Assembly (NCBI GenBank): GCA_014983025.1
Contig: JADCLP010000001.1
Span: 682,001-746,000, forward strand
Length of the DNA: 64,000 nucleotides
Direction of reading: 5' to 3'
Source of the DNA: Erythrobacteraceae bacterium E2-1 Yellow Sea
Lineage (GTDB): Bacteria; Pseudomonadota; Alphaproteobacteria; Sphingomonadales; Sphingomonadaceae
Made by a program: the position numbers and the translations under genes. Under the pieces are notes generated by a model. The model worked only from the letters and a program-made list of their open reading frames with translations, was not told the DNA's origin and did no database searches. The first letter of the stretch is position 1. Each line of letters begins with the position of its first letter. Positions 3,801 to 46,786 of this stretch are shown here, in pieces.

Positions 3801-3882
3801 CCGAATCGCTCGCGAGTTGCGCGCACAGTTTCCAGTTAGCTCAATTGCACATGCGTCGCACCTCGAACGGTTCGACGAATGA
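826..3882 (+). CDS. Mrr-like nuclease fused to a P-loop NTPase, candidate antiphage effector
   Basis: A 1018-residue protein. Residues 15-130 resemble a restriction-endonuclease-like (Mrr_cat type) fold: Asp48 in GVDVFG and Gln64-Cys-Lys66 in GVQCKGK fit the D...QxK catalytic core. Residues 241-249 (GIPGAGKSV) are a Walker A motif, and VVDDAH around 288-293 is the Walker B. The remaining 600 or so residues look like helical repeats without obvious motifs. Nuclease, NTPase and long helical C-terminus is the layout of STAND-type defence proteins such as Avs relatives, but I cannot assign a known type. The start is TTG 826, inside the previous gene. The next Met is near residue 180 and would remove the nuclease. 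The location in an integrative element beside conjugation genes fits a defence role. Confidence 0.7.
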   Translation: MDFLDLQIPPPSSWTKFEDLCRALFAAIWDDNGTQRNGRTGQAQHGVDVFGHPEGLAGALHGVQCKGKDGRYRSVATTAEFDDELAKAEKFSPQLARWYFVTTAPNDAALQKHAREVSQLRNKRGQFRVDVLGWESVQALLAQHPEVIEEFYPELGTRIPEILRRLESLPAEIGEAIRGMSAEPPCISRWQSVDFNSERDLGPALMGRPLGAADVKACPEIPEANLALEEIERAFSARLVGIPGAGKSVCALQTARRMYDKGWRVVRCLGTIGKDLCLTTDDIPTLHVVDDAHLLSDETIQLAEQATTSTKWLLSTHTLADDTHHSAGAIPIDTKRAVAHIAGELRRNRDETLRVVMRVDDRVGDDIGDESIDHRLSAAEEADFPWQFCFILGGGWRRAKLAAQKAHSSGNDLVLAAAAIRQIASRDAQCQISQLEYLISSASEDTDGLDAQVARLVRERSLISTGDLRCPHQRFATVILGRILEAQSESGRQAIGRMLRAVLGDPEMPLLGLFLLLRELSSAGRGRRWTRLVKANWLEPLFERCRSAQSGPEVSGAAHLLNEFETYANDWLQDVICDFKSVIANWIADPPERTGYAIGHLLNVINQRNEEAGREILNIAGAEQVARAMNAADPVRAGEIANMLSLAWAGQDEIWRNTYLRTIDRNACQVLVSNWPDDSHLWSAADYCRHFVSMDEEFGLDLIEGLLPAIEGRLRADPAKAFHELDEIVWHSLRLFDPLGLYKGKNAPNKRMRLLGRKLCAIWNPEDLAEKLSTASKRDFQSVTRLLHFLRNVSKSRFEATVAFLDWDLIDATIGDDWRTGKGEWVRLLGQVYSTDAGRKAAANLVERNLGTIVSMPTTLALIAPEQAFRHVESGGEIALSYFDNFDWRLAPGVLAKFADHRSDLVDALLKPHEEKCGDVITRESPSFYKDALLFLRIHWQIANNSFQRMLDSIDPDKAKLSWANAMRGKKAERDVGAYLIERTLDRSDAIGRIARELRAQFPVSSIAHASHLERFDE

Positions 3883-4055: not shown

Positions 4056-6965
4056 TTAAATCCCAATATCGAGGGTCTTGCTCTTCGTTCGAGTAAGTTC
4101 CTTCTCGACTTTCTGCTGGTCAGGCTTGGGCTGGTCAATGGAATTCCCCTTAGCCGCAGCAGCTCGCAGCCTCTCGGTCACTTCAAGGGCCGAGGCCTTC
4201 TCACCCCTGTTTCGAGCCACTGCTGCGCCGAGCTTTCGCGTATGGTCCATTACGAGAGTGAGGTGATCGCGAAGCCTGGTCACCGTTACGAGGAACGTCT
4301 TCTGGTTCGAGAGATTGCGCTCGCGGCTGTCCATCACCGCGATCCCGCGGTCGGATGTTAGACCCTGCGCCATATGAGCGTTGAGAGCATAGGCGAGATC
4401 GATCCGTTTTAGCATCGGATCGGCTTTAGCCAGCGTAATTTGCTCGCCGCTTGAGGTTTCGACGGTGACCTTTCCTCGGTTGATCGCCACCACCCTAGCC
4501 TGGTCGGCATTGAAAAGGCCACGCTTGTGATCGTTGCGCGTCCAGCGGATTTTGTCTCCCTCATGGACCTCGAGCTTCCTCTCTTCGAACAGGGAGAGGT
4601 TGTCGTTCGTTTGGCCCGCCTTGAGCCGTGAAGGATCAATGCTGAAACGCCTGCCGCGCTTGTTTACCACGGTCACATGCTTAGTACCGCCACGGCCATC
4701 CAATATCCGATATTCTCCCGGCATTAGGCCGAGCGTCTTTTCTCGCCGCGAGACCTCCAGAACGCGGCCTGCTTGATAGGAGGCCCGATATCGCAGTTCT
4801 TCGCGCGTGGTGTTCACGCGGTCGAGAACGCGTAGCGCCATCTTGCCTGGTCCGATTTCGCGATTGGCGAGGAGGCCGGTCTGGACGGCCTCGTTGACGG
4901 CTGAGCGGATTTTCCGTCCTGATGCATAGATCGCTGTCCGATCACGCTCGGACTCAGGCAGAGAAAGCCACTGTTCGGCAACTACAATGGCGCCATCACC
5001 ATTTGCCTCGATCGTGTGATCTTTCAGCTGCGCCAGTGCTTTTGAGACATCGCCCTTTTGGGCGGCAGCCTGAGCTTCGCGGACGACTGGATTTCGGGCG
5101 CGTAGATTGGTGTTCATGTCTGCCCTAGCAATCCCCGCCTTCTGGAGCAGGGCAAAAGGTTTACCGGCATCCACCGCGCCCAACTGCTTGCGATCACCCA
5201 TCAGGACGAGCCTATGCACACCAGCCAAGTTTGCCAGTCGGACCAGCTTTTCCTTGTCTTCGTTGGAGACCATCGAAGCCTCGTCGAGCACCAGAACACT
5301 ATCCTTGAGAGCCGATTGCGCTTCGGAGCGGTGCACGAGGTTTGCGGGCTCATCGAGTAGCTTCTTCCAGCCGCCGAGGAAGCGCGCCAGCGTTTGCGAG
5401 CCGATACCGGTGTCGCGCTCGAGCATCTGGACCAGAGTGTTCTGGATCGCGAGCCCGACGACCTGCCGACCCTCCTCGCGCAGGACTTGTGCAACAGGGG
5501 CCAAAACGCTGCTCTTGCCCGCTCCGGCAATGCCCTGGATTGCGACAGTTCGGTCCTGTGAAGTCAGGATCAGTCGGGCAGCCGACAGCTGGCCGTCATT
5601 GAGACGAAATCCGTGACCAATCTCGGCCGATGCCTGTACCCGATCCTCTGCCTGTTTCGGTGAGAGGGCGACTTCAACTTCCCCTTTTCCAGCCTCGACC
5701 TCGGCAATGATGCGCTGCTCGGTTTCAATGGCATCGCGGGATGCAAGCCAACCTTTGTGATTGCCCTTCCCGGCAACAAGGTGGCCTGTGCGCACGAGCG
5801 CGCGGGTGCGCTTTTCGACATCTGCAATGGTGGTCGGCAATCCGAAATCCAGCGCCGTCTTGTAGAGCGCTTCGCGTTCGAACGCCGCTTCGCGCTGCGA
5901 CAGATGGCGCACGGCCGAAGCGACCGCCTGCGCGGCGGCGATGGTCTGCTTGTCCTGCCTAAGCACCGAAACCGGAACAAGCGGGTCTGCGGGGGGACTG
6001 CGCACGTGCGCTGCAAATTGCCTGAGAAGCGCACGGCCACGTTCGACCAGGGAGGTAAAGGCGCTTCCCGGCATACCGGCTTGCGTAGCGCGTCCCTGCG
6101 CGCGCTCGATGATTGGAGAGAGGTCAAGTCCGATCGACCTTGCGGTCTCATCCCAGACTTTGCCGAGCGTGTCCCGGTCCTCGATTACCTTCTTGGCAGC
6201 GCGCGTATCGAGCGCGGCGATCCGGCCTGCTTCAAGCCCCAGACCGCGCCGCGCTTCGAGCACCTCCTTTCGTCTCGAAGAGAACGCCATGACTTGGTCG
6301 CGGGAGACCCCTTGCGCTTCGAAATTACCGTGCTTGAGCGTCGGCCCCGGTTCGTAACCAAGCTTCTCGACCGCCACCCGAAAGCGCGCCATCGCGATCG
6401 AATTGAGGGTAGTGTTGAGCTGCCAAAGCCGATCGTTCTTAAGGGTTCGCCACTTGCCATCCTTGCCCTGCGTCACATTGGCGATGACCGCGTGAAAGTG
6501 GAGGTTGGGCTCCTGGTTGCGGTTGGTGTCGTGCTGGAACAAGCCGATCGCTAGGTTGCTAGTCGGTTGGGTAAGAACATTGCCATCCTTCACAATGCGG
6601 GTTTCGGAGGCGTTCTTCTCGGCCCATTGCAACGCTTCGACGACAGCCTCGCGGTAGGCAGTGATAATCCGTTCGTCCTTGCCGACAAGCGCGAGCAGCG
6701 ACCAGCTCTTGGGCACGGAGAAAGTAAGATCGGTGCCCGGTCGATGCGCTTGTCCGGAATTGCCAACGCTCGTTCCATCGGGCAGCTCACCTCGCAATAG
6801 AGCGTCGAAGGCCTTGGCATCGACCCTCCCTTCCAGCCCAAGCCTCTTGGCGCCCTCACCGAGCCATTGCCCCGAACGGTCGGCATCCGCCTTGGCGTAG
6901 TAATTGTCGGACGCGAAGTAATTGGCCGCCGCTGAGGAGGAGCGGACATTGGCAACAGAAAGCAT
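4056..6965 (-). CDS. traA: MobF-family conjugative relaxase/helicase (TrwC/TraI type)
   Basis: A 969-residue relaxase that would nick oriT and unwind the transferred strand. The N-terminal TrwC relaxase domain has Tyr16 and Tyr22-Tyr23 as candidate nucleophiles and the metal-binding HFH at 156-158 (the HUH motif). The RecD-like helicase domain has Walker A GIAGAGKSS at 478-486 and Walker B LDEAS near 560-564. AAGG lies 7 nt before the ATG. It follows the coupling protein gene on the same strand after a 46-bp gap, so both are probably co-transcribed. Its length is close to the usual 950-1100 residues and no key residue is missing. It is a different MOB family from the relaxase at 42901. Confidence 0.93.
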   Translation of the reverse strand: MLSVANVRSSSAAANYFASDNYYAKADADRSGQWLGEGAKRLGLEGRVDAKAFDALLRGELPDGTSVGNSGQAHRPGTDLTFSVPKSWSLLALVGKDERIITAYREAVVEALQWAEKNASETRIVKDGNVLTQPTSNLAIGLFQHDTNRNQEPNLHFHAVIANVTQGKDGKWRTLKNDRLWQLNTTLNSIAMARFRVAVEKLGYEPGPTLKHGNFEAQGVSRDQVMAFSSRRKEVLEARRGLGLEAGRIAALDTRAAKKVIEDRDTLGKVWDETARSIGLDLSPIIERAQGRATQAGMPGSAFTSLVERGRALLRQFAAHVRSPPADPLVPVSVLRQDKQTIAAAQAVASAVRHLSQREAAFEREALYKTALDFGLPTTIADVEKRTRALVRTGHLVAGKGNHKGWLASRDAIETEQRIIAEVEAGKGEVEVALSPKQAEDRVQASAEIGHGFRLNDGQLSAARLILTSQDRTVAIQGIAGAGKSSVLAPVAQVLREEGRQVVGLAIQNTLVQMLERDTGIGSQTLARFLGGWKKLLDEPANLVHRSEAQSALKDSVLVLDEASMVSNEDKEKLVRLANLAGVHRLVLMGDRKQLGAVDAGKPFALLQKAGIARADMNTNLRARNPVVREAQAAAQKGDVSKALAQLKDHTIEANGDGAIVVAEQWLSLPESERDRTAIYASGRKIRSAVNEAVQTGLLANREIGPGKMALRVLDRVNTTREELRYRASYQAGRVLEVSRREKTLGLMPGEYRILDGRGGTKHVTVVNKRGRRFSIDPSRLKAGQTNDNLSLFEERKLEVHEGDKIRWTRNDHKRGLFNADQARVVAINRGKVTVETSSGEQITLAKADPMLKRIDLAYALNAHMAQGLTSDRGIAVMDSRERNLSNQKTFLVTVTRLRDHLTLVMDHTRKLGAAVARNRGEKASALEVTERLRAAAAKGNSIDQPKPDQQKVEKELTRTKSKTLDIGI

Positions 6966-7011: not shown

Positions 7012-9336
7012 TCAAATCTCCGCGTCGACGTCACCCAAATCGTGATCGTATTTGTCATGGGCCGCTCCGCCGAGAAGCGAACGCTGCTGTTCTTCCTGAA
7101 GCTTTCGGTCGACCTTTCCACGCTGATCATCGTCGCGCTGCCAAGCATCAGGATCGGGTAGATCGCTTCGCGGTGATCCTTCGCGTTCTTTTGCAACGTC
7201 CTGCGCCGTGTCGTCCCCGCCTGGCTTTTCATGAATCGGAAGCTCGCCTTGGCGTCGATCCTCCGGCGGGCGGTGCCCGACCTTTGGTTGGGTCTCATCG
7301 ACCGCATTCGTGCGAGCCTGTTCTGCCTGCCTGGTCGAAGGCTTCTCTGTCTGATCCCGAACCTTCGGCTCGCTCTTCGAGTTGATATTGGCTGAGCGCG
7401 AGGGATGTCGTTTCGGTTCCTTCCTGTCCTTCATCTTGCGCGGATCACCCTCGTCGCTGTTGCTGGAAGCGCCGTCATCCGCACTCCCATCTATCGTCTC
7501 GGCGGTAGCATTCGCCGGACCACCTGTCGGTGTTGTGGTGGCAGCGCGCGCAATGAACCCTTCGGCTCGCCGAGGCCAATCGCGCGGGGACAAGGTGACA
7601 GGCGCTGCCGGAAAACCGTCGGGAAATTTGATAAAGCCTTCTAGGCTCCTGAGGCCCATGAATTCATCGGGCAGAAGCAACGGCACAACCTGCCGACGAG
7701 GTGTCAGGCTGACCGCATCGCGGGCGTTGTTGTAGCCATAGCTGTAGCCCTCCTCCATCTCGCGCACTTCCCGGTGGCCGATAATGTCCGAGCACCATGT
7801 GGCGGTCTCACGATCGGCAGTAGCCAGGATCAACTTGGTCCTTGCAAGCGAAGACAGAGTCATCGCCATGTTCTCGCCGTAGACCTCCTTGAGCTTGGCA
7901 AAAGTGTGGACGCCTGTGACGATCGCGCCCCCGAAGTTGCGCGCGGTTTGCAGACCCTTTTCAAGCGAGGGCAGGCGATGGAGCGCGCCCAGTTCGTCGA
8001 TCAGGAACCACAGCTTGAGTTCACGCGTCCGCCGTCCAGTCATGAGCGTGTTTATCGCTGTGTCGAGCCACAGCGTGAGCAACTGCGAGAGAACTGTCAT
8101 GTCGACATAGCGCGCTGACAGGAACAGCAGCGATCCTTCCTCGCACTCGCCTGCGACCCACTGGCGGACCGAGAACGGCTCTCCTTTGTCGGGAAGCATC
8201 TGCATCGCCTTGGCGTTGACGTTGAACACCGCACGCACCGATTCCGCCATTCTGGCAGCGCTGGGCGTGCTGATCGGACCGGCCATCGTGTCTTCAACAA
8301 GGCGATGAAGATCGGAGAGATCGGCATTCATCAACTCGTTAGCGAGCGCGGCATTGGTCCCGCGTCCTGCCTCTTTCAACTTGATGCATGTCTCAACGAA
8401 CAAGGTGCGCGCGGCGAGCACCCAGAACTGTTCAGAGCCTCCGCCATCATGAGGCACAAGCGACTCCGCCGCTGCATGGAATTCAGCACGCGAAGTGCAA
8501 TCGTCGAATACGCTCCACGCAGGACAACGCTGATCGAGAGGGTTGAGGATGATGTCGCGCTCGGGCTCATAGAAGGTCTCGACAAAAGCGCCGGTGAGGT
8601 CGAAAATTACCGCGCGCTCTCCCCTCTTCCTGATCTCTGAAACGAGTTCCGTGAGGGCGACCGTCTTGCCTGTACCGGTGGTGCCAACGAGCATGGTGTG
8701 GCTTTGTTCGCGGCGCCAAGGCCAGCTTACACCAGCAACATGAGCGGGCGAATAGAGGCCCGCCGATTGCAAAGCACTTGCTCCGGCAAACCGCCATTTC
8801 CAGCCGAGAGAATTGCCATATTCGCGGGCGCGTTCGACCCGGTTGTGCTGCCCGATTTCCTTTTCGAGTTCGGGCAGCGTCGAGAGCGACGCGCCGCGGA
8901 CATGCTTCCTTTGTTTGGATCGTTCCCCGAAATGTTCAGCCACCCACCAGAAGAGGATAAACAGCGGCGCAAGAACAAGGGCTGAGGTGACAAGCGCGTC
9001 CTTCACCGATTCCTGAAAAAGGGCCATAGCCTCCCGCATTGGTGGGTACTCGGTGATCACCGAAATGGGGAAAGCGACCATGCTTCCATCGGCCAGTTGC
9101 AGGTTCACAAGCTTCTCAGGGTCGAACTCCATGAAGCCGTATCCCGAGGCATAGATGTGCATCCAGAGTAGGTAGGTCTGATGGTCACTCAGCCTTCCTG
9201 TCACCTCCCAGTAGATGAGACCCAGAACGACGAGCAATGTGACAATCAATGGTCCTTTCAGGCCTGCTGCAAACATGAAACCGAAGTGCCCGAGAAGCTG
9301 GCTTCCGCGGGTAAAATTGACCAGATTATGCTTCAT
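7012..9336 (-). CDS. traD: Type IV coupling protein TraD/VirD4 family
   Basis: A 774-residue ATPase that brings the relaxase-DNA complex to the secretion channel. Two N-terminal membrane segments (about 26-44 and 115-133) precede a soluble ATPase with Walker A VGTTGTGKT at 217-225 and a hydrophobic Walker B-like stretch ending in FLIDELG. The last 170 residues are charged and low in complexity, as in many TraD tails. I place the start at 9336 because GGAGG lies 5 nt upstream; a longer start at 9381 would overlap the preceding gene more deeply. It overlaps the small mobilisation gene by 11 bp and is followed by the relaxase gene. Confidence 0.92.
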   Translation of the reverse strand: MKHNLVNFTRGSQLLGHFGFMFAAGLKGPLIVTLLVVLGLIYWEVTGRLSDHQTYLLWMHIYASGYGFMEFDPEKLVNLQLADGSMVAFPISVITEYPPMREAMALFQESVKDALVTSALVLAPLFILFWWVAEHFGERSKQRKHVRGASLSTLPELEKEIGQHNRVERAREYGNSLGWKWRFAGASALQSAGLYSPAHVAGVSWPWRREQSHTMLVGTTGTGKTVALTELVSEIRKRGERAVIFDLTGAFVETFYEPERDIILNPLDQRCPAWSVFDDCTSRAEFHAAAESLVPHDGGGSEQFWVLAARTLFVETCIKLKEAGRGTNAALANELMNADLSDLHRLVEDTMAGPISTPSAARMAESVRAVFNVNAKAMQMLPDKGEPFSVRQWVAGECEEGSLLFLSARYVDMTVLSQLLTLWLDTAINTLMTGRRTRELKLWFLIDELGALHRLPSLEKGLQTARNFGGAIVTGVHTFAKLKEVYGENMAMTLSSLARTKLILATADRETATWCSDIIGHREVREMEEGYSYGYNNARDAVSLTPRRQVVPLLLPDEFMGLRSLEGFIKFPDGFPAAPVTLSPRDWPRRAEGFIARAATTTPTGGPANATAETIDGSADDGASSNSDEGDPRKMKDRKEPKRHPSRSANINSKSEPKVRDQTEKPSTRQAEQARTNAVDETQPKVGHRPPEDRRQGELPIHEKPGGDDTAQDVAKEREGSPRSDLPDPDAWQRDDDQRGKVDRKLQEEQQRSLLGGAAHDKYDHDLGDVDAEI

Positions 9337-9655
9337 CGCTGCCTCCAGCAGGACGAGGAGCAACGAGCCCGAGACGTTCAAGCCTGCGCTGGTACGCGGC
9401 GACGGTTCGATCGCGAAGATCGGTTTCAGGATGGTGCGTAAGCAGGGCGTCGAGTGCGACCGTTATGAAGATATTCTGGCGCACCGGATCAGTCGCGGGT
9501 GTCCGCAAATCCGCCTCGGTGGCGCGGTTCCAGGCATCGAAGATACAGTCTCCGATGACTATGCTTGAACTGACATTGCGCTCGCGCGCCTGGTCCCTGA
9601 TCCAGTCAGCGATCAGGGGTGTGACATAAGCCACAAATCGTTTGTCTCTAGGCAT
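9326..9655 (-). CDS. Small mobilisation accessory protein, probable oriT-binding
   Basis: A 109-residue basic protein just upstream of traD and overlapping it. The N-terminal part (MPRDKRFVAYVTPLIADWI) has the strand-then-helix look of ribbon-helix-helix auxiliary proteins that sit at this position in MobF modules (TraM/TrwA-like). I infer that it binds oriT or the operon promoter, but I do not recognise the exact family. The start is chosen at 9655 because AAGGAG lies 9 nt upstream; a start 24 nt earlier would put that site inside the gene. Confidence 0.65.
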   Translation of the reverse strand: MPRDKRFVAYVTPLIADWIRDQARERNVSSSIVIGDCIFDAWNRATEADLRTPATDPVRQNIFITVALDALLTHHPETDLRDRTVAAYQRRLERLGLVAPRPAGGSDEA

Positions 9656-10240
9656 AAACCCAAGCTCCTTGTGTCTCAAAGAACCTGGCTCACCCTTCGA
9701 AAGGCAAGTGCCATTCTATGCCAGTAGCCAAGGTGTAGGAAATCGAAAACTTTCTTCTGAAATTCCGCGACTTACATCAATTTGGACCAGTTCGGCACAG
9801 TCAGGATTGCAGCTGGACCGAGCCTGGCACAGAAGCGGACACCTCCCGTTTGCGCCGGAATTGCGCCAGTTTTCAGGCGGCATCGCTGCGTACGGTGTGC
9901 TGGGTCAAGCCCATTCTCAAGTGCGCGTCAGTGACCAGGAAGTTCGCCCGACTTCACCTGCGAGAAATGCTTTTTGTTTCAACCGGATCGCGAAGCGCGG
10001 CGCGGCATTTGAGCGCCGAATGAGTTTGCATAATGGGACACATCCGCGTCAGATTTTTCCTGATTTGTTCCGAAATGGGGACCAAATAGCCATCAACAGA
10101 AGGACGACCTCTGCCTGCTGAGCCATCCCGCCTATTCCGATGTTGCGTTGGAGAAATAAGGGCGTATATGTTCCCTTTTTGTTCCTACCTATTGCAATGT
10201 GCCTCAGTGTGCTGCAAGGTGCTGCAAAAGGGGAACGCCG
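9656..10240. other. Intergenic region: mobilisation promoter side and left end of mini-island
   Basis: A 585-bp gap without a convincing gene. The part up to 9885 is upstream of the mobilisation operon and would be the natural place for its promoter and part of an oriT, though I see no nic consensus I can defend. The part after 9900 lies inside the mini-island and contains the upstream region of the ribbon-helix-helix gene. Confidence 0.4.
9886..9900 (+). repeat. Left 15-bp direct repeat, candidate attL of the mini-island
   Basis: CTGCGTACGGTGTGC occurs here and again, identically and in the same orientation, at 17774-17788, beside the upstream end of the tandem integrase genes. The two copies bracket about 7.9 kb holding the methylase/nuclease genes and both integrases. 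Attachment-site function is inferred from the exact repeat and its position next to the integrase. Confidence 0.65.
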
Positions 10241-10447
10241 ATGGCAGCCAAAAATCGAGTCACGGTCAATCTTGAGGACGAGGATTACGAAGCTCTCGTT
10301 GACGTTGCCACTAGAGCCGACCGCTCGATTGCATGGGTCGGAAGGCAAGCAATCGTGGAGTTCTTAGCGTCTCAAGAGCGGAAGGAAGTGCCCCTTCTCG
10401 CTACCGCGGGAACAGGCAACTCATTCCATGGAAAACCCAAGGGATGA
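10241..10447 (+). CDS. Ribbon-helix-helix (CopG-like) regulator of the restriction cluster
   Basis: A 68-residue protein. Residues 5-42 (RVTVNLEDEDYEALV, then ADRSIAWVGRQAIVEFL) match the beta-strand, helix, helix pattern of ribbon-helix-helix DNA-binding proteins. AAGGGG sits 7 nt before the ATG; upstream in-frame starts give an unlikely Cys-rich extension. Its stop overlaps the start of the methyltransferase gene (ATGA), which implies translational coupling. A role as the controller of the methylase operon is inferred from position; some CopG proteins are instead antitoxins. Confidence 0.75.
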   Translation: MAAKNRVTVNLEDEDYEALVDVATRADRSIAWVGRQAIVEFLASQERKEVPLLATAGTGNSFHGKPKG

Positions 10448-11346
10448 AGTATCTCGGCGGCGACATATACCAAGGTGATTGCCTCAAGGTGATGGCTGAC
10501 TTGCCCGATCAGTCAGTCGATCTGATCCTTTGCGATCTACCTTATGGGACCACGCAGAATAAGTGGGACAGCGTCATTCCGTTAGACGAGCTTTGGTCTC
10601 AATATCGAAGGATCATCAAGCCGAAAGGCGTGATAGCTTTGTCATCCCAAGGTATCTTCACAGCGCGCCTGATGCTGAGCAATGAGGCGTGGTTTAAGTA
10701 CAAATTCGTGTGGGTAAAAAGCAAGCCGACCAACTTTCTCAATGCTCGTCGCCAGCCCCTTCGGCAACACGAGGACATCTGCATTTTCTACGGCAGACAA
10801 CCTAATTACAGGCCTGTCATGTCGAAGGGTGAACCGTACGATAAGGGGACCCGCAAAGCGCAGTATACCGGAAGCTATGGGGACTTTAAGCCTGTCCAGG
10901 TGAAGAGTGACGGCGAGCGGTTTCCGACCGATACGCTTTACTGCAAGACAGCTGAAAGCGAAGCAGGCGGCCGAGTGTGGCACCCCACACAGAAGCCCGT
11001 TGCGTTGGGTCGTTACCTGATACGGATGTTCACTGGGCCGGGTGACGTTGTGTTGGACAACGCGTTCGGAAGCGGAAGCTTTTTGGTTGCCGCAGCGCTT
11101 GAGGGGCGGCGTTTCATCGGAATCGAAAAGAACGAGGAGGTCCACCTCTTCAAGGAAAAGCAAATTGACTACATCAAGGTCGCCAAGGAGCGGCTTGCAG
11201 AGGTTGAAGCAGCCATCAAAGCTAAGACCCCCGCACCGCCGTTATATTCGGCACTTCAACCTGCGGCACGAGCTGGTCAGCCAAACCGTCGGGGTATGGT
11301 TGACGTCGATGCGGTCATTAGAGACTCGGAGAAACTAACCGCGTGA
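10444..11346 (+). CDS. Beta-class DNA methyltransferase (N4-cytosine/N6-adenine)
   Basis: A 300-residue methyltransferase. The catalytic motif IV DLPY is at 31-34 and the SAM-binding FGSGSF at 208-213, followed by RRFIGIE. Motif IV preceding motif I is the circularly permuted beta-class order. The segment between, with RRQPLRQHEDICIFY near 100-120, would contain target recognition. DLPY instead of the usual DPPY is seen in many N6-adenine enzymes. The start at 10444 overlaps the regulator stop, and its own stop overlaps the next gene (GTGA), so three genes form one tightly coupled operon. Sequence specificity cannot be read from the protein. Confidence 0.88.
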   Translation: MKYLGGDIYQGDCLKVMADLPDQSVDLILCDLPYGTTQNKWDSVIPLDELWSQYRRIIKPKGVIALSSQGIFTARLMLSNEAWFKYKFVWVKSKPTNFLNARRQPLRQHEDICIFYGRQPNYRPVMSKGEPYDKGTRKAQYTGSYGDFKPVQVKSDGERFPTDTLYCKTAESEAGGRVWHPTQKPVALGRYLIRMFTGPGDVVLDNAFGSGSFLVAAALEGRRFIGIEKNEEVHLFKEKQIDYIKVAKERLAEVEAAIKAKTPAPPLYSALQPAARAGQPNRRGMVDVDAVIRDSEKLTA

Positions 11347-14063
11347 GTGGTCCCGCTGCTAACTACAATGAGCGTTCATGGGCGATTGATTTGATCGGCC
11401 ATATGAAGTTGCTCGCCGCCCGCGATAATCGTTCGATCAAAGATGCAGGCGGTGAGCAAACCGTCAAGGCGGAAGGGGGTAGCCTCTTCCCGGATGTCTT
11501 GCTTTTCGGCGATCGTTCAACCGCACGGATTCTGCAGGGTTGGGAATTGAAGATGCCCGATACGAGCATCGACGATTTCGAGTTCCGTGATAACGCGGAG
11601 ACCAAAGCGCGAGCTCTCGGCCTAGATAGTTTTCTGCTTTGGAACGTGTCGCATGCGCGGCTTTACACCCGCAACGATGAAACGGACGAGTTTGAAGCAG
11701 CGGAGCGTTGGGATGAACTCTCGGACATCAAGACCCGCGCTAGCGTGGCAAGCAGCCGAGGGCGGTGGGAAGCCTTAGCAGAGAAAATTTTCGGGCATCT
11801 GAATGACCTTTTTGACCGTGGGTCGCTGGAAGGTCGACAGTTTATCGACGCTTATCGCAGCGGTGGCGTAACATCTCTCATTATGGAAAATTCGGGGTTG
11901 GTAGCACAGGCGTTGACGAACGCCGCGCGCCGAGATTCTCGACTACGAGCCGAGATGACATTGTGGTGGGACCGATACCGGGCCGAATATGGCGAGGGCT
12001 CCAAAGAGCAGGTCTTAGCGCAAGCAGTTATATCCAATTGGATTGGGAAAATTCTATTCGGACACATCCTCAGAGAGAAGGATGTGCGCGCCCGGCGAGT
12101 TGCTGCGATTGATGAAGACACCACTCCTAGTGAAGCGCTCGACCTATTCCGGCAATTGTCCGAGGACTGCAATTTCTGGACGATATTCTCGGATAGCCTA
12201 GGGCTAAGTCTGGTGCCCACGCCGGTCTGGGACCAACTCTTACAGTTCCACAAATTGCTGTCCGACCTGCGGGTTGGTTCGGTAGACCAGGGGCAGCTCT
12301 CTGGAGTACTGGAAGCCACGGTCGAGGTGGCCGTTCGCAAACTTCGCGGGCAATATCCTACACCAATCGAGCTTGCGCGCCTCCTCACAAGCCTATGTAT
12401 TCGGAACACGGTGGAGGACCGGGTTCTCGATCCGTGCTGCGGAAGTGGGACGATTGCGCGCGCAGCAATCGAACAGAAGTTATCGGCGGGTGTCGATCCT
12501 GACCGGGTGGCTTCGACGGTTTTTGCAGGCGACCAAGATCCACAAGCGGTGCAGATCGCGACCTTCGCATTGGCAAAAGCGAGCCTGATGCATCAGCCGC
12601 TACGTATATTCCAAAGGGACGCTTTTTCTCTAGAACGCGAAACCGATCTTGACTTCCGTAATCCTACAAACGGCAATGTCTTTGCCGAACGCGTTGGCCA
12701 GTTTGACGCCATTACCAGCAACTTGCCCTTCGTAGCGCAGGCTGGGCGAAAGCAATATGGGAATGCCCTTGACCGTGTGGCTGCAAGCCTCGGCCAAGGT
12801 GGTGAAAGGTTCACTCGGCGCGCCGACGTTTCAGCATATTTGCCGTTCGCCTTACATCCGCTTTTGAATGGCAATGGGCGTCTTGGAATCATCATTACCA
12901 ATGCGTGGCTTGGTACAGATTGGGGCGACGATTTCTACTCGCTACTGGGACGCTACTATGATCTCAAGTGTGTGATCACGTCGGGCGCTGGACGCTGGTT
13001 TCAGAACAGCGAGGTTGTTACCAACATCCTGATTCTCGACAAGAAAGCTGATCCATCAACGCCCAGCGGCAATGTTAAGTACGTGGTCTTGACCCGACCG
13101 CTAGAAGAGCTTGCTGATGAGGAAGCGGTTGAGATCGCAGCGGCTCAAATTGAGCTAGGCCAGACGCAGAATGACACGATGACAATTCGCGAAGTCAGCC
13201 ACGCTGACCTCGCCCGGTATCGGCAATTCGGATTAGGCGGGAACGCGCAATTCGTCGACTGTGATTGGGTTCTAGACCTACCGCTGAGACCGCTGACCGA
13301 TCACTTCGCAATCCGGCGTGGAGAACGTCGGGGAATGAATGCGCTTTTCTACCCTGATGCTGGGCATGGCATCGAGGCGGAATACGTGAAACCGCTAGCA
13401 AAAGGACCGAGCGATTTCGCCCGACTGACAAGTCCCGCCGCAAAGGTGGCCTTCTCTTGTTCCCGATCCAAGGCGGAACTTGAAGCTCTGGGGCACAAGG
13501 GAGCACTAGCTTGGATCAAGCGATTCGAGACGCACGAAAACATTGCCAAGTTGAGCCGGAATGGCATGCATTGGTATGAGATGCGCGCGGACACGCTGAC
13601 CGATTTGGTGATGTTTATTGCTTATGGTGACCGTCTGTTTGTCGGTCGTGTTGATCCGCCGGCATTCGCAGATCAGCGTTTGGTGCGGCTTGACCCAGTT
13701 CGCGAGATCGACATCGATTTGATGCATGCGTTGCTCAACAGCACGATATCAATGTTCCTAATCGAAGGTATGGGGTTCGGGAGAGGCTTGGGTGCCTTGG
13801 ACTTGAACAAGGATCGCATTGAAAATTACATGCACTGCCTCGATCCGGGGAAACTCGATACGGCAGGCATTGAAGCGATCAAAGCGGCGTTCACGCCTCT
13901 TACTTCGCGCGATATTCTTGAGATTGCCGATGAGCTGGAGCAGGCAGATCGTCGTGAATTCGACCAGGCGGTGCTCAATGCCTTCCGACTAGATATCGAT
14001 CTGGACCGGATTTATGATGCCCTGCTCTCGCTTGCAGAAATCCGTCGCACGGCAAACGAATAG
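11343..14063 (+). CDS. N6-adenine DNA methylase with N-terminal PD-(D/E)xK-like domain (type IIG-like)
   Basis: A 906-residue protein. The N-terminus has Pro50-Asp51 followed by WELK at 67-70, which fits a PD-(D/E)xK nuclease fold. A helical linker leads to an N6-methylase core with DPCCGSGT at 363-370 (motif I) and NLPF at 460-463 (motif IV, usually NPPF/NPPY). The C-terminal 350 residues probably include a target-recognition domain. This is the architecture of type IIG single-chain restriction-modification enzymes. The start is GTG, overlapping the upstream methyltransferase stop by 4 nt. It ends 6 bp from the convergent PLD nuclease gene. It could instead act as a methylase only, with the PLD protein as nuclease. 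Confidence 0.82.
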   Translation: MSGPAANYNERSWAIDLIGHMKLLAARDNRSIKDAGGEQTVKAEGGSLFPDVLLFGDRSTARILQGWELKMPDTSIDDFEFRDNAETKARALGLDSFLLWNVSHARLYTRNDETDEFEAAERWDELSDIKTRASVASSRGRWEALAEKIFGHLNDLFDRGSLEGRQFIDAYRSGGVTSLIMENSGLVAQALTNAARRDSRLRAEMTLWWDRYRAEYGEGSKEQVLAQAVISNWIGKILFGHILREKDVRARRVAAIDEDTTPSEALDLFRQLSEDCNFWTIFSDSLGLSLVPTPVWDQLLQFHKLLSDLRVGSVDQGQLSGVLEATVEVAVRKLRGQYPTPIELARLLTSLCIRNTVEDRVLDPCCGSGTIARAAIEQKLSAGVDPDRVASTVFAGDQDPQAVQIATFALAKASLMHQPLRIFQRDAFSLERETDLDFRNPTNGNVFAERVGQFDAITSNLPFVAQAGRKQYGNALDRVAASLGQGGERFTRRADVSAYLPFALHPLLNGNGRLGIIITNAWLGTDWGDDFYSLLGRYYDLKCVITSGAGRWFQNSEVVTNILILDKKADPSTPSGNVKYVVLTRPLEELADEEAVEIAAAQIELGQTQNDTMTIREVSHADLARYRQFGLGGNAQFVDCDWVLDLPLRPLTDHFAIRRGERRGMNALFYPDAGHGIEAEYVKPLAKGPSDFARLTSPAAKVAFSCSRSKAELEALGHKGALAWIKRFETHENIAKLSRNGMHWYEMRADTLTDLVMFIAYGDRLFVGRVDPPAFADQRLVRLDPVREIDIDLMHALLNSTISMFLIEGMGFGRGLGALDLNKDRIENYMHCLDPGKLDTAGIEAIKAAFTPLTSRDILEIADELEQADRREFDQAVLNAFRLDIDLDRIYDALLSLAEIRRTANE

Positions 14064-14069
14064 TACGGA

Positions 14070-15131
14070 TCAAATATAACCGAATCGTCGCCCGCTGGGC
14101 CCATTTCTCGTCACAAACTGGGCATCAATGCCCTTCGATTGTTTAACAATACTTTTGAATTCTTGGCTCGTGATTTTGAGCAACTGCATATTGAATTTCT
14201 TAGTTCCAGGAAGTTTCCGGAAAACGATTGCAAGATCGGAACGGTTCGCTCCTGATGCAGGCCTCGTTGTTGTTCTGTTGACTGCGGATTGGATGGACGC
14301 CGAATTGAGCATCAGGCGCCACATGTCGTTCTGCACCCGTTTCGTGAAAACGAGCGCGTGCTCCTGTCCATCAACAGTGACGAACTTTCTCTTTTCCGGT
14401 GAAGCACTCAACGCAAAGTAGGGCATCATTGCCTTTGGGAACTCAAGGTCGCGCCCGCCAGCATTTGCGCTACCGACTTCGAGCCAAGCGATAGTTGCGC
14501 TTTTCGGACTGCCATCAAACGTAGGTTCTTCGCCTACAACCTCGTGGGGATCAGGTTCAGGTGGAGCGGCTCCAATGTCAGCAACCTTCTTTCGTTGCTT
14601 CTTCGCCTTTTTGAACAGTTCCTTGTAGTCTGTAAGCTCCTGGACGGAGGGAGAGTGACCCAAGTTCCACATCTCCCGCCATTGCTTCTTAAGGGCGTTG
14701 GCTTCCTTTGCAGCCTCGGCGGTCAGTATCACGGCAACTTCACCATTCTTGCGGAGACCGTTTACCGTCATGTTTCCCGAGCCAATGGCGGCAGCAGCAT
14801 TGCTCTTTTCGCTCGAAGACCAAAGGAGATACATCTTGGGGTGAAATCTGCATGATGGTGTAAGCTTCACAACACGCAGTTCGCTACCGGGCAACTGCTC
14901 TATGTACTCCAGCGCTTCTGGCTGGCTGATCGCGTCGTCTAGACCGACTACCCATCTTGATACTTGCGGGATGCCACCCACCGCCAAGGCGAGCGCTTTC
15001 ACGCCGGGTAAGGTGGCGTACGCAACGGCGACATCCAGACGGTCGAAATTTCCCGCCGCGCTGGCAACGGTTAAGGCCTTACCCAGCGTTTGGTCTGCCG
15101 CTCCACCCTGCGAGATCAGCGTCCACTTCAA
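14070..15131 (-). CDS. PLD-family endonuclease-like protein of the restriction cluster
   Basis: A 353-residue protein. His97-x-Lys99 in RFHPKMYLLW, then GSGN at 117-120 and Glu131 in KNGEV form the HxK(x)nN(x)nE/D signature of phospholipase D-like nucleases such as the BfiI/NgoFVII restriction enzymes. Only one HxK is seen, so a homodimer would be needed for a complete active site. A Lys-rich segment at about 175-195 may contact DNA. The gene is convergent with the methylase operon, separated by 6 bp. The start is a weak TTG at 15131 with no clear ribosome site; the frame is open for about 85 nt upstream without an ATG or GTG. Confidence 0.75.
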   Translation of the reverse strand: MKWTLISQGGAADQTLGKALTVASAAGNFDRLDVAVAYATLPGVKALALAVGGIPQVSRWVVGLDDAISQPEALEYIEQLPGSELRVVKLTPSCRFHPKMYLLWSSSEKSNAAAAIGSGNMTVNGLRKNGEVAVILTAEAAKEANALKKQWREMWNLGHSPSVQELTDYKELFKKAKKQRKKVADIGAAPPEPDPHEVVGEEPTFDGSPKSATIAWLEVGSANAGGRDLEFPKAMMPYFALSASPEKRKFVTVDGQEHALVFTKRVQNDMWRLMLNSASIQSAVNRTTTRPASGANRSDLAIVFRKLPGTKKFNMQLLKITSQEFKSIVKQSKGIDAQFVTRNGPSGRRFGYI

Positions 15132-15251
15132 CGCAGACCGCCAAGAATGTGTGTGATCGAATACCCAGTCATTGATGCACCCCCTCGAAACGCAGGATGC
15201 ACATGAAAATTGAGAAGTCTACAGCACGACGCTTATTCGTGCGTCACGAAG

Positions 15252-16448
15252 TCATTGAAGAGCCTGAGCAATAGCATCACCAATCTGCTGAACCGCTTCG
15301 AGCAAGTGACCGTCATCAAGGTGAGCATACCGGGCCGTGGTCTGCACATTGGCGTGACCAAGTAGGCGGCCGATCATCGGCAGCGTTTCCTTGTTCATCG
15401 CTGCGTGGCTGGCGAAGGTGTGGCGCAGGTCGTGGATGCGAACGCCGGGTAGTCCTGCCTCGTCCCTGACCCTACGCCAGAAACCATTCACACAACGAAG
15501 CGGCTTGCGGTAGCCGTAATTCCAGAACGGATATGGAATCCTCTCGAATCGCGGTAGCGCGGCGATCACTTCGCGGGCTGCCGAGCCGAGCCATACAGTT
15601 CGTGGTCCGGTCTTGCTGTCGCGCAAGTGCAGTCGGTTGCCCTTGATGTCGCTCCATTCCAGCGTGAGGATTTCGCTCTTCCGGCAACCTGTCAGCAGTA
15701 GAAGCGTGATGGCCGCGCCCGCGCATTGCTTCGTGCGATCATCTGATGATCGCAGCTTCGCCAACTCGGCACCCAGACGGGCCAGCTCATCATTGGTCAG
15801 GAAGCGCTCGCACTGGCGCTTGCGGTTGGGCCGGACGGAGCGGCACGGGTTGGTGTTTTCGAGCCGGTAGCCCCATTCCTCGGCCTTGTTCAGCATGTGC
15901 TTGAGGATTTCGAAGGTCCGGTTCGATGCTCCCGGCCCGGTCCGATTGTTGAGGTCCGCAAACCAGCTCGTCACATGGCCCTCGTTCAGCTCATCGATGT
16001 AGACGCCAGCAAAGGCGTCATCGAAATAGCGGCGGCGGTAGCCGGTGTGCGTTTCCAAGGTGGATGCTTTCCAGCGTGGCGCCCAACGATCCCAGTATTC
16101 GCTCACGAAGTCGGCGAAGCTCGGCGCGGACCGAATGCGCTGACGTTCGGTTGCCGGATTGCGACCGACCTGCGCGTAAGCAATGACTCGGCGCGCGACC
16201 ATCTGGGCCTGGTAGCGAGTCAGGACCGAAGCTGGCCCGATTGTGACCGTGCGCATACGGCCTGCCATGCGGGTCTGGACGATGTAAACGTTGCGACCGC
16301 TCGGATAGTGTCGGATACCAAACCCGTGTTCGACGCCCAACCAGGTCGTTGTACGCGCCTTGCCTTTGGGAACGAGCTTGAAGTTGACGGTTGCCCCGAC
16401 CTCGGCAAGCGCCTCCTCGACGATCCGCTTGAGACTGGCGGCTGTCAT
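15252..16448 (-). CDS. Tyrosine recombinase/integrase, second of a tandem pair
   Basis: A 398-residue phage-type integrase. It shows an N-terminal arm-binding region (GFGIRHYPSGRNVYIV), a core-binding domain at about 110-200, and a catalytic domain with the Arg of TGCRKSEIL, HDLRHTFAS, LLGHANVQTT and Tyr of TARYAHL. All catalytic residues appear present. Its ATG overlaps the end of the upstream integrase by 4 nt, so the two are co-translated and probably act together on the same attachment sites. Confidence 0.93.
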   Translation of the reverse strand: MTAASLKRIVEEALAEVGATVNFKLVPKGKARTTTWLGVEHGFGIRHYPSGRNVYIVQTRMAGRMRTVTIGPASVLTRYQAQMVARRVIAYAQVGRNPATERQRIRSAPSFADFVSEYWDRWAPRWKASTLETHTGYRRRYFDDAFAGVYIDELNEGHVTSWFADLNNRTGPGASNRTFEILKHMLNKAEEWGYRLENTNPCRSVRPNRKRQCERFLTNDELARLGAELAKLRSSDDRTKQCAGAAITLLLLTGCRKSEILTLEWSDIKGNRLHLRDSKTGPRTVWLGSAAREVIAALPRFERIPYPFWNYGYRKPLRCVNGFWRRVRDEAGLPGVRIHDLRHTFASHAAMNKETLPMIGRLLGHANVQTTARYAHLDDGHLLEAVQQIGDAIAQALQ

Positions 16449-17617
16449 GGCCTGAGGCCAATCGCTTGCGCCAGCGAGCCGGAAACCCGCTCGGCGGCTT
16501 CGCCGATCACGTCATCGGACAGGTGGGCATATTTAGCGGTCGTCTCGACCAGCTTGTGGCCCAGCAGTTTCCCGATGGTCGACAAGGGCACGTTGTCCAT
16601 GATCGCGGTCGAAGCGAAGCTGTGGCGCAGATCATGGATGCGAACGTCAGGCAAAGCGCAACGTCGCCGGAAATCGTACCACCAGGTATCAAAGTTCAGC
16701 GGGCGTTGTCCGCTCCGGTTCGGGAACACAAGTTTGCTGTCATCACGCCGCTCGATCCCTGCGAGGACATCCTGAGCTTGTGAATTGAGCCAAATGACCT
16801 TGGGACCCGTCTTGCTGTCTGGCAGCCGCAGTCGGGGCGGCTTCACCCACTCCCAGCGCAGATTCTTGATCTCGCCCACGCGTGCACCAGTGAACAAGAG
16901 CAGGCGAGCGATTGCGACCTCTGCCGGTCGGTCTGCCTCAGCCTCACACAATGCCGCTCCGATCCGGCGATACTCGGCGGGCGTCAAATAGCGCTCAACG
17001 CTTTGCCGCTTGTAGCGCGGCATCCCACGGCAAGGGTTCGAACCTAGCCGACGCATCTTGAGCGCTTCGGCATATTTGAACAGCGCGGACAGCACGGGCA
17101 CTGCGCGGTTGAACTTCACCTCGCTCTCTCCCGCGCATCCGTCGCGCCAGCGGTGGATGTCTGGTGGGAGGATGTCCGCCACGCGCGTGTCGCCAAACGT
17201 AGGCTTAATATCGAGCCGCCACGCATCCCAATTTCGTTTCGTGGTCGAGGGCTTCCAGACGCGGGATAGATCATCCCAATAGGCTTCAACGAAGTCGTTC
17301 ATCGTCGGTGTGGCCTTCACCACTGCGCGCTTAGGCAATCCGTCGAGCGCGGCTTCGGCAAGAATGCGGCGAGCTTGCGCCCTTGCCAGTCCTGCTTCAA
17401 GTTCGTCGGTCCGGCCAAGGGTGATGCGGCGATGCTTTCCGCGATGCCGCAAGCGAACGAACCAGAAGTAGTTCCCGCTCGGCCTTACGCGCAAGCCGAA
17501 GCCCGCAAGCTCGGTGTCCCAGATGCAGTATTCGCGTTCGCGCAGCGGCAATTTGCGGCGAGCGAAATTGCCATCGAGAAGTGCTCTGCGCGCAGACCTT
17601 TGACGGTTGGGGACCAT
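16445..17617 (-). CDS. Tyrosine recombinase/integrase, first of a tandem pair
   Basis: A complete catalytic domain is visible: FTGARVGEI with the first Arg, HDLRHSFAS, LLGHKLVETT and the Tyr of TAKYAHL, preceded by a DUF4102-like arm domain (TELAGFGLRVRPSG). I place the start at ATG 17617, with GAGGG about 12 nt upstream, giving 390 residues. The frame continues to a TTG at 17758, which would add 47 poorly conserved-looking residues. The candidate attachment site at 17774 lies just upstream, the usual arrangement for an integrase. It overlaps the second integrase by 4 nt. Confidence 0.88.
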   Translation of the reverse strand: MVPNRQRSARRALLDGNFARRKLPLREREYCIWDTELAGFGLRVRPSGNYFWFVRLRHRGKHRRITLGRTDELEAGLARAQARRILAEAALDGLPKRAVVKATPTMNDFVEAYWDDLSRVWKPSTTKRNWDAWRLDIKPTFGDTRVADILPPDIHRWRDGCAGESEVKFNRAVPVLSALFKYAEALKMRRLGSNPCRGMPRYKRQSVERYLTPAEYRRIGAALCEAEADRPAEVAIARLLLFTGARVGEIKNLRWEWVKPPRLRLPDSKTGPKVIWLNSQAQDVLAGIERRDDSKLVFPNRSGQRPLNFDTWWYDFRRRCALPDVRIHDLRHSFASTAIMDNVPLSTIGKLLGHKLVETTAKYAHLSDDVIGEAAERVSGSLAQAIGLRP

Positions 17618-17773
17618 ATGGCATTCGCCCTCATGCAAACTGCCCCCAGAACCCTTGGAAATACTGTCATTTGCGGGGACCGGGCGGCATTCAACAGCGC
17701 CCTCTCTGCCGAGCACCTTGAGCGTATCGCGCACTGATTTTATTGCACTTTTTCCCAAAACATAGCAGTGCTA

Positions 17774-17788
17774 CTGCGTACGGTGTGC
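17774..17788 (+). repeat. Right 15-bp direct repeat, candidate attR of the mini-island
   Basis: This is the second identical copy of CTGCGTACGGTGTGC. It lies 157 bp upstream of the preferred integrase start (16 bp upstream of the alternative TTG). The preceding bases GCAGT-GCT-ACTGC add a local dyad that overlaps the repeat, which would suit a recombinase core site. Confidence 0.65.
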
Positions 17789-18211: not shown

Positions 18212-18433
18212 TCAGAACTCGTCGAGCATTGCGCCATGCACCGTGTGCACCACACGGCTGGCCAGATGTGCTGGCAAGGCGTTGTAGTCACCTTCGTCGA
18301 GAGCGAAGTATCCAAGGTCGTCATCCTCGACGACGTGCTGGTCGAAGAAACTGTGCAAGGCCCGCTGTTCGGCAGTGGCGAGTGCTTCAAAGTAGCTGTT
18401 CGAATTCGATTCAATATTGCCAAGTGTAGTCAT
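18212..18433 (-). CDS. Conserved hypothetical acidic protein, 73 aa
   Basis: A 73-residue acidic protein (EDDDLGYFALDEGDYNALP) with no membrane segment or recognised domain. The start at 18433 has AGGAGG 5 nt upstream in the context CATCAGGAGG, shared with other genes of this element. It has its own leader hairpin and its own terminator, so it is probably a monocistronic unit. Function unknown. Confidence 0.7.
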   Translation of the reverse strand: MTTLGNIESNSNSYFEALATAEQRALHSFFDQHVVEDDDLGYFALDEGDYNALPAHLASRVVHTVHGAMLDEF

Positions 18434-19105: not shown

Positions 19106-19504
19106 TCAGTCGATCTCGGGAGCATCCTTGTTGTCGTCGTTCTCGCCGGAGCCGTTGCCGCGCGAGAGGAAGTCGACCTTGTCGGCGAGGATCTCGGTAC
19201 CGTAGCGTGTGACCCCTTCCTTGTCTTCCCACTGGGTGTAGTGGATGCGGCCCTGGACGCTGACCAGCTGGCCCTTGGTGCAGTACTGCCCGACGGTCTT
19301 GGCAAGGCCGTTGAAGCAGGTCACCCGGTGGAACTCGCTTTCCTTGGCAGTGTAGCCGTTCTCGTCCTTGTAGGTCTTGCCGTCCTTGTCCCGTGCGGGG
19401 CGATCGGTGACGACGGTGATCCCAGTGACATTGGTGCCGCCCTTGGTCTCGCGAGTTTCCGGATCGCGGGCGATGCGGCCGGTGAGGATTGCGATATTGG
19501 TCAT
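19106..19504 (-). CDS. ssb: Single-stranded DNA-binding protein
   Basis: A 132-residue SSB. The N-terminus MTNIAILTGRIARDPETRE, the central FHRVTCFNGLAKTVGQYCTKG and LVSVQGRIHYTQWEDKEG..RYGTEI are the standard OB-fold motifs. The C-terminus ends DNKDAPEID, acidic but without the usual DIPF tip, so partner recruitment may differ from the chromosomal SSB. On conjugative elements such SSBs coat the single strand entering the recipient. Its leader carries an unusually long hairpin that hides the ribosome site. Confidence 0.93.
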   Translation of the reverse strand: MTNIAILTGRIARDPETRETKGGTNVTGITVVTDRPARDKDGKTYKDENGYTAKESEFHRVTCFNGLAKTVGQYCTKGQLVSVQGRIHYTQWEDKEGVTRYGTEILADKVDFLSRGNGSGENDDNKDAPEID

Positions 19505-46709: not shown

Positions 46710-46786
46710 TGGTAGCGGAGGAGGGACTCGAACCCCCGACACGCGGATTATGATTCCGCTGCTCTAACCACCTGAGCTACTCCGCC
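46710..46786 (-). tRNA. tRNA-Met (CAT), attachment target of the elements
   Basis: A complete cloverleaf of 77 nt with encoded CCA: acceptor GGCGGAG/CTCCGCT, D arm GCTC...GAGC, anticodon stem GCGGA/TCCGC with loop ATCATAA (anticodon CAT), and T arm GGGGG-TTCGAGT-CCCTC. An elongator tRNA-Met is most likely; a lysidine-modified tRNA-Ile2 has the same anticodon, but the stems look Met-like. The 3' end faces the mobile elements and its last 15 nt recur at 36923. Confidence 0.92.

Follow-up and report, generated by a model that had tools for sequence, protein, structure and literature searches.

A restriction island with paired tyrosine integrases probably uses the nic region of a MOBF-type origin of transfer as its attachment site

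We analyzed a 64,000-nucleotide stretch of the genome of Erythrobacteraceae bacterium E2-1 Yellow Sea (the window; contig JADCLP010000001.1, positions 682,001 to 746,000), which holds an island of restriction genes and two tyrosine integrases at 9886-17788. A 15-bp direct repeat, CTGCGTACGGTGTGC, bounds the island on the plus strand, with exact copies at 9886-9900 (the cargo, or right, end) and 17774-17788 (the int end), and the element so bounded is 7,888 bp. The cargo consists of a DNA N4/N6 methyltransferase gene (10333-11346, plus strand; PF01555, 97.9 bits; PADLOC MTase_II, 205 bits), a gene for a 906-residue type IIG-like restriction-modification (R-M) protein (11343-14063, plus strand; PADLOC REase_MTase_IIG, 799 bits over residues 7-903; PF02384), and a gene for a phospholipase D (PLD)-fold protein resembling the NgoFVII restriction endonuclease (14070-15131, minus strand; PF09565, 28.5 bits against a cut-off of 23.8). 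The integrase genes int2 (15252-16448) and int1 (16445-17758, with a TTG start as listed) lie on the minus strand, and both products match PF00589 (Phage_integrase) and PF13356 (Arm-DNA-bind_3). The true start of int1 is more likely near 17617, because an annotated homologue in L133 begins later, and this would leave an attachment region of ~170 nt (L numbers denote loci from the searched genomes, and G000 is the genome of the window). No relaxase gene was matched among the open reading frames (ORFs) of the element or in its Pfam scan. A small ORF at 10199-10447, which has a ribbon-helix-helix (RHH) look by eye and no Pfam match, could encode a regulator or excision factor.

The flanking genes are of the conjugation type, all on the minus strand. 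To the left are genes for a TrwC (MOBF) relaxase-helicase (4056-6965; PF08751, 261 bits), a TrwB/TraD-type coupling protein (7012-9381; PF10412, 516 bits), and, in the position of trwA, a 117-residue protein (9326-9679) that has no Pfam family and whose RHH nature was judged by eye. To the right are genes for a small acidic protein (18212-18433, start set by eye) and a single-stranded DNA-binding protein (SSB; 19106-19504; PF00436, 100.6 bits). A TraU gene, of the F-type mating-pair formation system, is located at C11:667264, ~14 kb left of the window start. The surrounding DNA, element A, is most plausibly an F-type MOBF conjugative element (an integrative and conjugative element [ICE]) of this Erythrobacteraceae genome. 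The ssb gene is located 3' of the presumed nicking site (nic); in F, ssb marks the leading region. The original prediction described a self-contained element inserted into element A, with exact repeats, the second of which adjoins an overlapping recombinase pair, and with methylase, nuclease, and recombinase genes on the inside only. These features hold: the repeats match letter for letter, the two integrase genes overlap by 4 nt beside the second copy, and the methylase and nuclease matches lie between the copies, with conjugation-type genes on the flanks.

The repeat is rare. Within the window, a third match occurs at 37665 with 2 mismatches (shuffle mean at ≤2 mismatches, 0.09), and in the 2.52-Mb genome, a search at ≤1 mismatch returned three matches, the two island copies and one with a single mismatch; the reversed pattern had none. 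We then joined both window flanks through one repeat and searched 397 genomes of the family for the empty site. Matches were found in 104 genomes, and eight of them span the junction (87% identity across the full 1,162 bp in L064; 71-74% in L069-L075). All eight have exactly one core (≤1 mismatch, either strand), exact in seven and with one mismatch in L075, and share one gene order: ssb, the small acidic gene beside the core, the core, and the small gene adjoining trwB. L066 is a ninth such site, although its query match covers one flank only. The empty L074 and the occupied L049, from different genomes, are identical over 1,331 nt on the left side of the core; on the right, identity runs from the core over 2,011 nt, the full length compared.

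Occupied sites are also present in the family. Of the 397 genomes, 35 have a relative of Int2 at E ≤ 1e-100, giving 19 loci from named records, and near-complete int1 lies just upstream of int2 in 14 of these (L045-L058) and in the window. A core like GCACACC[G/C]TAC (≤2 mismatches) stands 29-30 bp before the window-equivalent listed int1 start in all 14, while the DNA outside it differs, by eye, between most of them. A core is present at the int end in 27 of 29 family loci, and the int1 stop and int2 start overlap as ATGA or GTGA (4 nt) in 48 of 49, the exception being L035, which lacks an int1 neighbor; both counts include some same-genome loci twice (e.g., L016 and L053). We located the right end in the window and in 9 of these 14 loci. 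L047, L048, L049, and L053 have exact 15- to 17-bp repeats at both ends, their right ends carrying the core seen at 9886-9900; the repeats of L054 and L058 are less perfect, and the right ends of L045, L051, and L057 were located in additional flanking DNA. End-to-end spacing is 5,040 to 12,184 bp in the window, L047, L048, L049, L053, L054, and L058, and, from coordinates, ~20.5 kb in L045, ~19.4 kb in L051, and ~14.8 kb in L057. Just inside the right end, ~190 bp of DNA is kept in the window, L047, L048, L049, and L053 (the right-end module, 9901-10092, minus strand; aligned from these five right ends and the DNA upstream of an integrase pair on C30 of the window genome). TrwB and/or TrwC genes are close to the right end in the window, L049, L053, L062, and L051, and the left flank holds ssb and/or the acidic gene in L046, L047, and L052 as well. 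L048, L057, and L058 have chromosomal-looking flanks by eye.

These comparisons cover two of the checks proposed with the original prediction, namely finding the joined empty site and finding the same integrase pair with other cargo between the same repeats (e.g., L047, L048, and L049), and both turned out in favor of a self-contained inserted element. The contrary view, that the repeat is a chance or common dispersed sequence and the block an accidental neighborhood, is already refuted by the presence of just two exact copies in 2.5 Mb, the single-core empty sites, and the same ends around different cargo; its probability is negligible.

What the island inserted into can be read from the letters of the repeat. 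The nic of R388 comprises a hairpin whose 5-nt arms enclose a 4-nt loop, nucleotides 17-25 of sequence GTATTGTCT, and then a purine (PMC4176350); the substrate of F/R1 TraI is given as GCAAAAACTTGTTTTTGCGTGGGGTGTGGT (PMC5422253). From the R388 work we took as the MOBF nic criterion a stem-loop with 5-nt arms, 9 nt with G17, T18, and T23 and usually GTGT at 22-25, and then a purine. On the plus strand, each island repeat is the end of a stem-loop with 5-nt arms followed by GTACGGTGT-GC, with the presumed nick before GC. Both window sites follow the R388 rules (PMC4176350) and agree with the F substrate (PMC5422253), with 5-nt arms, a 3- to 4-nt loop, and then G17 T18 A19 N20 G21 G22 T23 G24 T25, nick, G26; the cargo-end stem has one mismatch. 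This layout would place nic1 between 9898 and 9899, behind a stem-loop that comes from the target (GCGGC-ATC-GCTGC, 9877-9889, plus strand; 4 of 5 pairs), and nic2 between 17786 and 17787 on the same strand. The order in R388 is oriT, trwA (encoding an RHH protein), trwB, trwC (PMC4853378), and the window has the same order, with all three neighbors of nic present and the trwA-position product an RHH protein by eye only. We infer that the repeat is the nic region of the origin of transfer (oriT) of a MOBF host element, where TrwC would nick. A third nic-like site in the genome, CTGTGTACGGTGTGC (L015; G000 C11:529621), could form the stem ACAGC-AGGC-GCTGT, as judged by eye; this 3-kb locus gave no match to TrwB, TrwC, or SSB.

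To test the target independently, we searched 147 genomes of the order, which yielded 25 TrwB loci (L103-L127; matches from 1.7e-166 to 6.4e-71, a range in which some further matches had no locus). Core plus stem-loop occurred in 13 of the 25, the window among them, at one place ~1.15-1.2 kb before the TrwB domain, compared with 0.022 per 1,500 bp in single-letter shuffles and 1 match in the remainder and reverse strand. Regardless of the stem, the core was at this place in 15 of the 25. The stems covary: across 75 sites, which contain 32 unique hairpins, pairing averaged 4.22 of 5 versus 3.11 with permuted arms (maximum of 2,000 permutations, 3.63), and 17 of the 32 stems were perfect (5/5) versus a permutation mean of 2.4 and maximum of 9. 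Because the sequences are related, this permutation is not a formal probability.

The element appears to bring a nic of its own. Its stem-loop, GCAGT-GCT-ACTGC (17765-17777, plus strand), has 5 of 5 pairs, and the int-end stem-loop is constant inside an integrase subfamily and different between subfamilies, even where different subfamilies occupy the same target DNA (e.g., L016, L017, L038, L040, and L041, by eye). Therefore, the int end would carry the element's stem-loop and the cargo end that of the target, and insertion would leave a nic-like site at both ends. Arrays would grow at such rebuilt sites, since some copies adjoin another copy's end (C30 in the window genome, L039, and L048, the latter two layouts judged by eye). 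The C30 copy (L004 in G000, C30:4685-7179) is a second, diverged integrase pair, 57% identical in Int2, with an attP-like layout of right-end module, core, stem-loop, and int1; no right end was found for it. A short TetR-like gene, scoring below the Pfam cut-off, immediately precedes it, and a RelE-family gene follows. We considered the module directly upstream of its int1 as another boundary; tandem accretion fits better because module and core are both there, L039 has the same layout, and the left end of a second element lies beside L048.

Further repeats inside both ends point to the integrases as the recombining enzymes. On the int side, minus strand, GGTCCCC is found at 17675-17681, an offset of +107 from the repeat, and ATATGGTCCCC at 17609-17620; on the cargo side, GGGGACCAAATAGCC is at 10077 (minus strand), at the end of the right-end module. 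Among 17 copies, 13 have GGTCCCC repeats 107 and/or 173 bp inside the int end, 11 of them both, and 10 of 11 scanned other ends have one GGTCCC repeat 158-185 bp inside. This layout suggests that the repeats are arm-type sites, in line with the Arm-DNA-bind_3 domains of both integrases.

The pair itself is an old, co-inherited family in Alpha- and Gammaproteobacteria at MOBF-type nic sites, as judged from the comparison of 31 pairs that include Photobacterium, Shewanella, Vibrio, Aliivibrio, and Rhodobacterales members. All three catalytic motifs are present in 27 of 31 Int1 and 24 of 31 Int2 sequences. In the tree, the int1 sequences form one clade (support, 0.71) and the int2 sequences do not, the Rhodobacterales int2 branching outside; distances between int1 tips and between int2 tips correlate at r = 0.94 versus ≤0.50 in 1,000 permutations. 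A strict nic rule derived from the R388 work was applied to 52 tandem loci chosen without same-genome duplicates, and 37 have a strict nic upstream of the pair, near the first integrase (24/28, 9/10, and 4/14 in the three sets). Near single integrases there was none in 34 loci (29 from a phylum search, L035, and four others; Fisher p = 1.6e-12, as if loci were independent). The 29 phylum-search loci, L148-L176, contain no tandem pair under the pair rule; among these controls, L164, L166, and L167 offer <200 bp of DNA ahead of the integrase frame and L148 and L161 <400 bp, and a further integrase fragment lies ~535 bp upstream in L148. The ACAC rule had no match in L134, L138, L139, L140, L143, L144, and L146, where by eye a partial, shifted, or opposite-strand version is seen in all except L138. 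In L144, a Tritonibacter plasmid, tandem integrases at 7431 lie near a mobF relaxase gene, and the nic-like stem-loop has the opposite orientation to that of the Erythrobacteraceae elements.

Plasmids carry copies with both ends as well. We took 14 regions from 47 plasmid records with an Int2 relative, and 13 were searched for a second core (L138 was left out). Same-strand core pairs were found in five. The distance between the cores is 9.2 kb in pPHDD1 of Photobacterium damselae (where there is one mismatch), 8.2 kb in a Shewanella baltica plasmid, 11.0 kb in the S. oneidensis MR-1 megaplasmid, 10.3 kb in Novosphingobium pP6W1, and 11.9 kb in a Sphingorhabdus plasmid. The second annotated gene past the right repeat is traI in both pPHDD1 and the S. 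baltica plasmid. Read in reverse, the int end of pPHDD1, GCAAAACTTGTTTTGCGTGGGGTGTC, is nearly the F nic, but its position 26 is C and its arms are shorter by one base; the strict rule therefore misses it.

Fifteen copies thus have both ends (the window, L045, L047, L048, L049, L051, L053, L054, L057, L058, and the five on plasmids), and restriction or other anti-phage matches occur in 11 of them, two on thin evidence, in scans that covered part of the cargo genes. The window and L053 share R-M genes. L047 carries a BsuBI/PstI-like R-M system, an AAA protein, and HEC-07; L048 a C5 methylase with GajA/GajB; L049 a C5 methylase, a type II restriction endonuclease (REase), and a Z1 protein; and L058 an EcoRII-C REase. 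By annotation, the Sphingorhabdus plasmid copy has dcm, vsr, and an REase, pP6W1 has DRT3 and a HEPN protein, and the S. baltica copy has a retron Ec67-type reverse transcriptase. The thin cases are an N-6 methylase in pPHDD1 and a match to the candidate defense family PDC-M33A in L057. No anti-phage match was found in L045 (metal-efflux-like by eye), L051 (HlyD-type), L054 (one protein scanned), or the MR-1 copy (a bacteriocin-like/ABC transporter set). Type III R-M genes lie near L056, a locus whose right end was not found.

Seen in the sequence, then, are exact repeats, single-core empty sites, a MOBF-nic-like target, an element-borne copy of it, swapped cargo, and co-inherited integrases. 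We consider it likely that the island at 9886-17788 belongs to a family of integrative elements that attach at the nic region of a MOBF-type oriT, in which the integrases recombine and the host relaxase may mobilize. Int1 and Int2, perhaps acting in a heteromeric complex with arm-type sites at each end, would recombine a circular attP (right-end module, core, the element's own stem-loop, and int1) with the oriT core GCACACC[G/C]TAC, leaving core and stem-loop at each end of the island. The carried nic may let a host relaxase (TrwC/TraI) mobilize the island, which would hitchhike without a relaxase of its own, and the anti-phage genes would then enter at the leading edge of transfer.

Several points weigh against this proposal. 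All of the evidence is comparative and drawn from sequence, with nicking, excision, integration, and transfer inferred from it, and the loci are related by descent, so that counts across them are not independent. The motif plus stem is missing from 12 of the 25 TrwB loci; the strict nic rule misses 15 of the 52 tandem pairs, of which 10 come from the 14 plasmid regions; right ends were sought in the 14 genome loci and none was found for L046, L050, L052, L055, and L056. TrwC was found anywhere in the genome for 12 of 15 genomes carrying pair loci and was not detected in the other 3. Copies at L048, at L039, and on C30 sit beside another element's end, and L057 and L058 are, by eye, in chromosomal sites other than an oriT; because such copies exist, a full oriT is not required for insertion.

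These chromosomal copies, together with the lack of a relaxase gene in the window element, are what one would expect if oriT were a convenient conserved landing site only, with nothing gained from the relaxase and the island moving as a passenger of the host ICE. A duplex-binding integrase does not, however, obviously need an element-borne, covarying stem with relaxase-type spacing, which many subfamilies have, and the single-integrase relatives lack the nic stem-loop. On balance we find the landing-site explanation unlikely.

Alternatively, the host relaxase could insert and remove the island, the repeats being relaxase products and the integrases passengers or regulators. This is a serious rival because R388 TrwC is a site-specific recombinase on tandem oriTs, for which a 17-bp minimal oriT (14+3) suffices as one target (PMC3264647), and the 15-bp repeat is nearly that minimal segment (13+2 if nic lies where we place it). 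TraI of F, however, is described in the same source (PMC3264647) as not recombining tandem oriTs, yet in our search F-like plasmids have the same arrangement. What the copies share is the integrase pair, and arm-type-like repeats stand at both ends of most of them. In L021, core positions 2-3 carry target-like letters; a strand transfer placed exactly at nic would not produce these, although mutation could. The G305 loci hint at exchange before core position 9 (taking L113 as the right end of the G305 element) and L021 at exchange at or after position 3; the core letters fit integrase or relaxase exchange alike and do not decide. Taken together, we regard insertion by the relaxase as quite improbable.

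The nic-site proposal also allows a bolder version, in which the island short-circuits host conjugation. Transfer would start at nic1 and stop at nic2, a stop signal rebuilt at the island's other end, and would deliver a 7,888-nt island circle or, on read-through, the whole ICE. Nic1 is the copy that retains the host's DNA on the trwA side; from there, transfer would enter the island first, with the anti-phage genes leading. A single sequence would serve as both att site and conjugative nic, maintained across Proteobacteria by an old two-integrase system. The odds of this version are lowered because streptococcal IME_oriT is described in PMC7563843 as not mobilized in cis, and we offer it only tentatively, as rather unlikely.

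Among known systems, an oriT-targeting island is already known as an idea from IME_oriT of Streptococcus. Those elements likewise insert in the stem-loop of an ICE oriT, likely including nic, carry varied cargo, and have some copies at secondary chromosomal sites (PMC7563843; PMC5704250). They differ in being elements of Firmicutes that target a MobT-type oriT and have an integrase plus excisionase and a Rep_trans-type relaxase, as these sources describe; the window element, also inserted in an ICE oriT stem-loop, has a MOBF-type nic, two cotranslated integrases in place of one with an excisionase, no relaxase match, and, across copies, mostly anti-phage cargo. GInts share an integrase operon at one end, variable cargo, a short other end, and imperfect repeats of 10-11 nt, but have three recombinases plus ginD, all essential, and in pseudomonads insert in a chromosomal ABC transporter gene (PMC5385486). 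Membership in the GInts (ginABC plus ginD) was rejected for the window element, which has two recombinases and an oriT target and whose next gene inward encodes the PLD protein. Strand-biased circularizing elements (SEs) likewise have at one end an operon for two catalytic tyrosine recombinases but need intA-tfp-intB and srap, with tfp-srap synteny reported there in Gammaproteobacteria only (PMC10214605). Membership in the SEs was likewise rejected, as int1 and int2 overlap directly with nothing between. In SXT-type mobilizable genomic islands (MGIs), the att site and oriT are separate; in the window element they are one sequence. These MGIs similarly lack a relaxase and have a helper-related oriT moved by the helper's relaxase (a step that for the window element is our proposal), and they differ in having one integrase plus a recombination directionality factor and a MobH helper (PMC5704250). 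A search of the open-access literature, with subscription papers and preprints outside its scope, turned up no description of MOBF-oriT-targeting or tandem-integrase versions.

Other features of the window concern the host element. A 1,018-residue protein encoded beside the relaxase operon (826-3882) has a weak nSTAND3 match below the cut-off and is possibly a defense NTPase. A separate single integrase-like gene, recognized by eye at 35491-36744, served as the tree outgroup; its region and that of a tRNA-Met gene at 46710-46786 are a possible boundary of the host ICE. We rejected a tRNA as the insertion target of the island, the sole tRNA found in the window being the one at 46710.

If our reading is right, these elements would be a proteobacterial island class that uses the conjugative nic itself as its integration site. 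This would give relaxase-less defense islands a route to move with MOBF plasmids and ICEs, and would go some way to explaining the presence of restriction, Gabija, retron, and DRT genes beside oriT in these elements. The associated sequence rule, a nic stem-loop before tandem integrases, would then find more such elements, new defense cargo, and unmapped MOBF oriTs.

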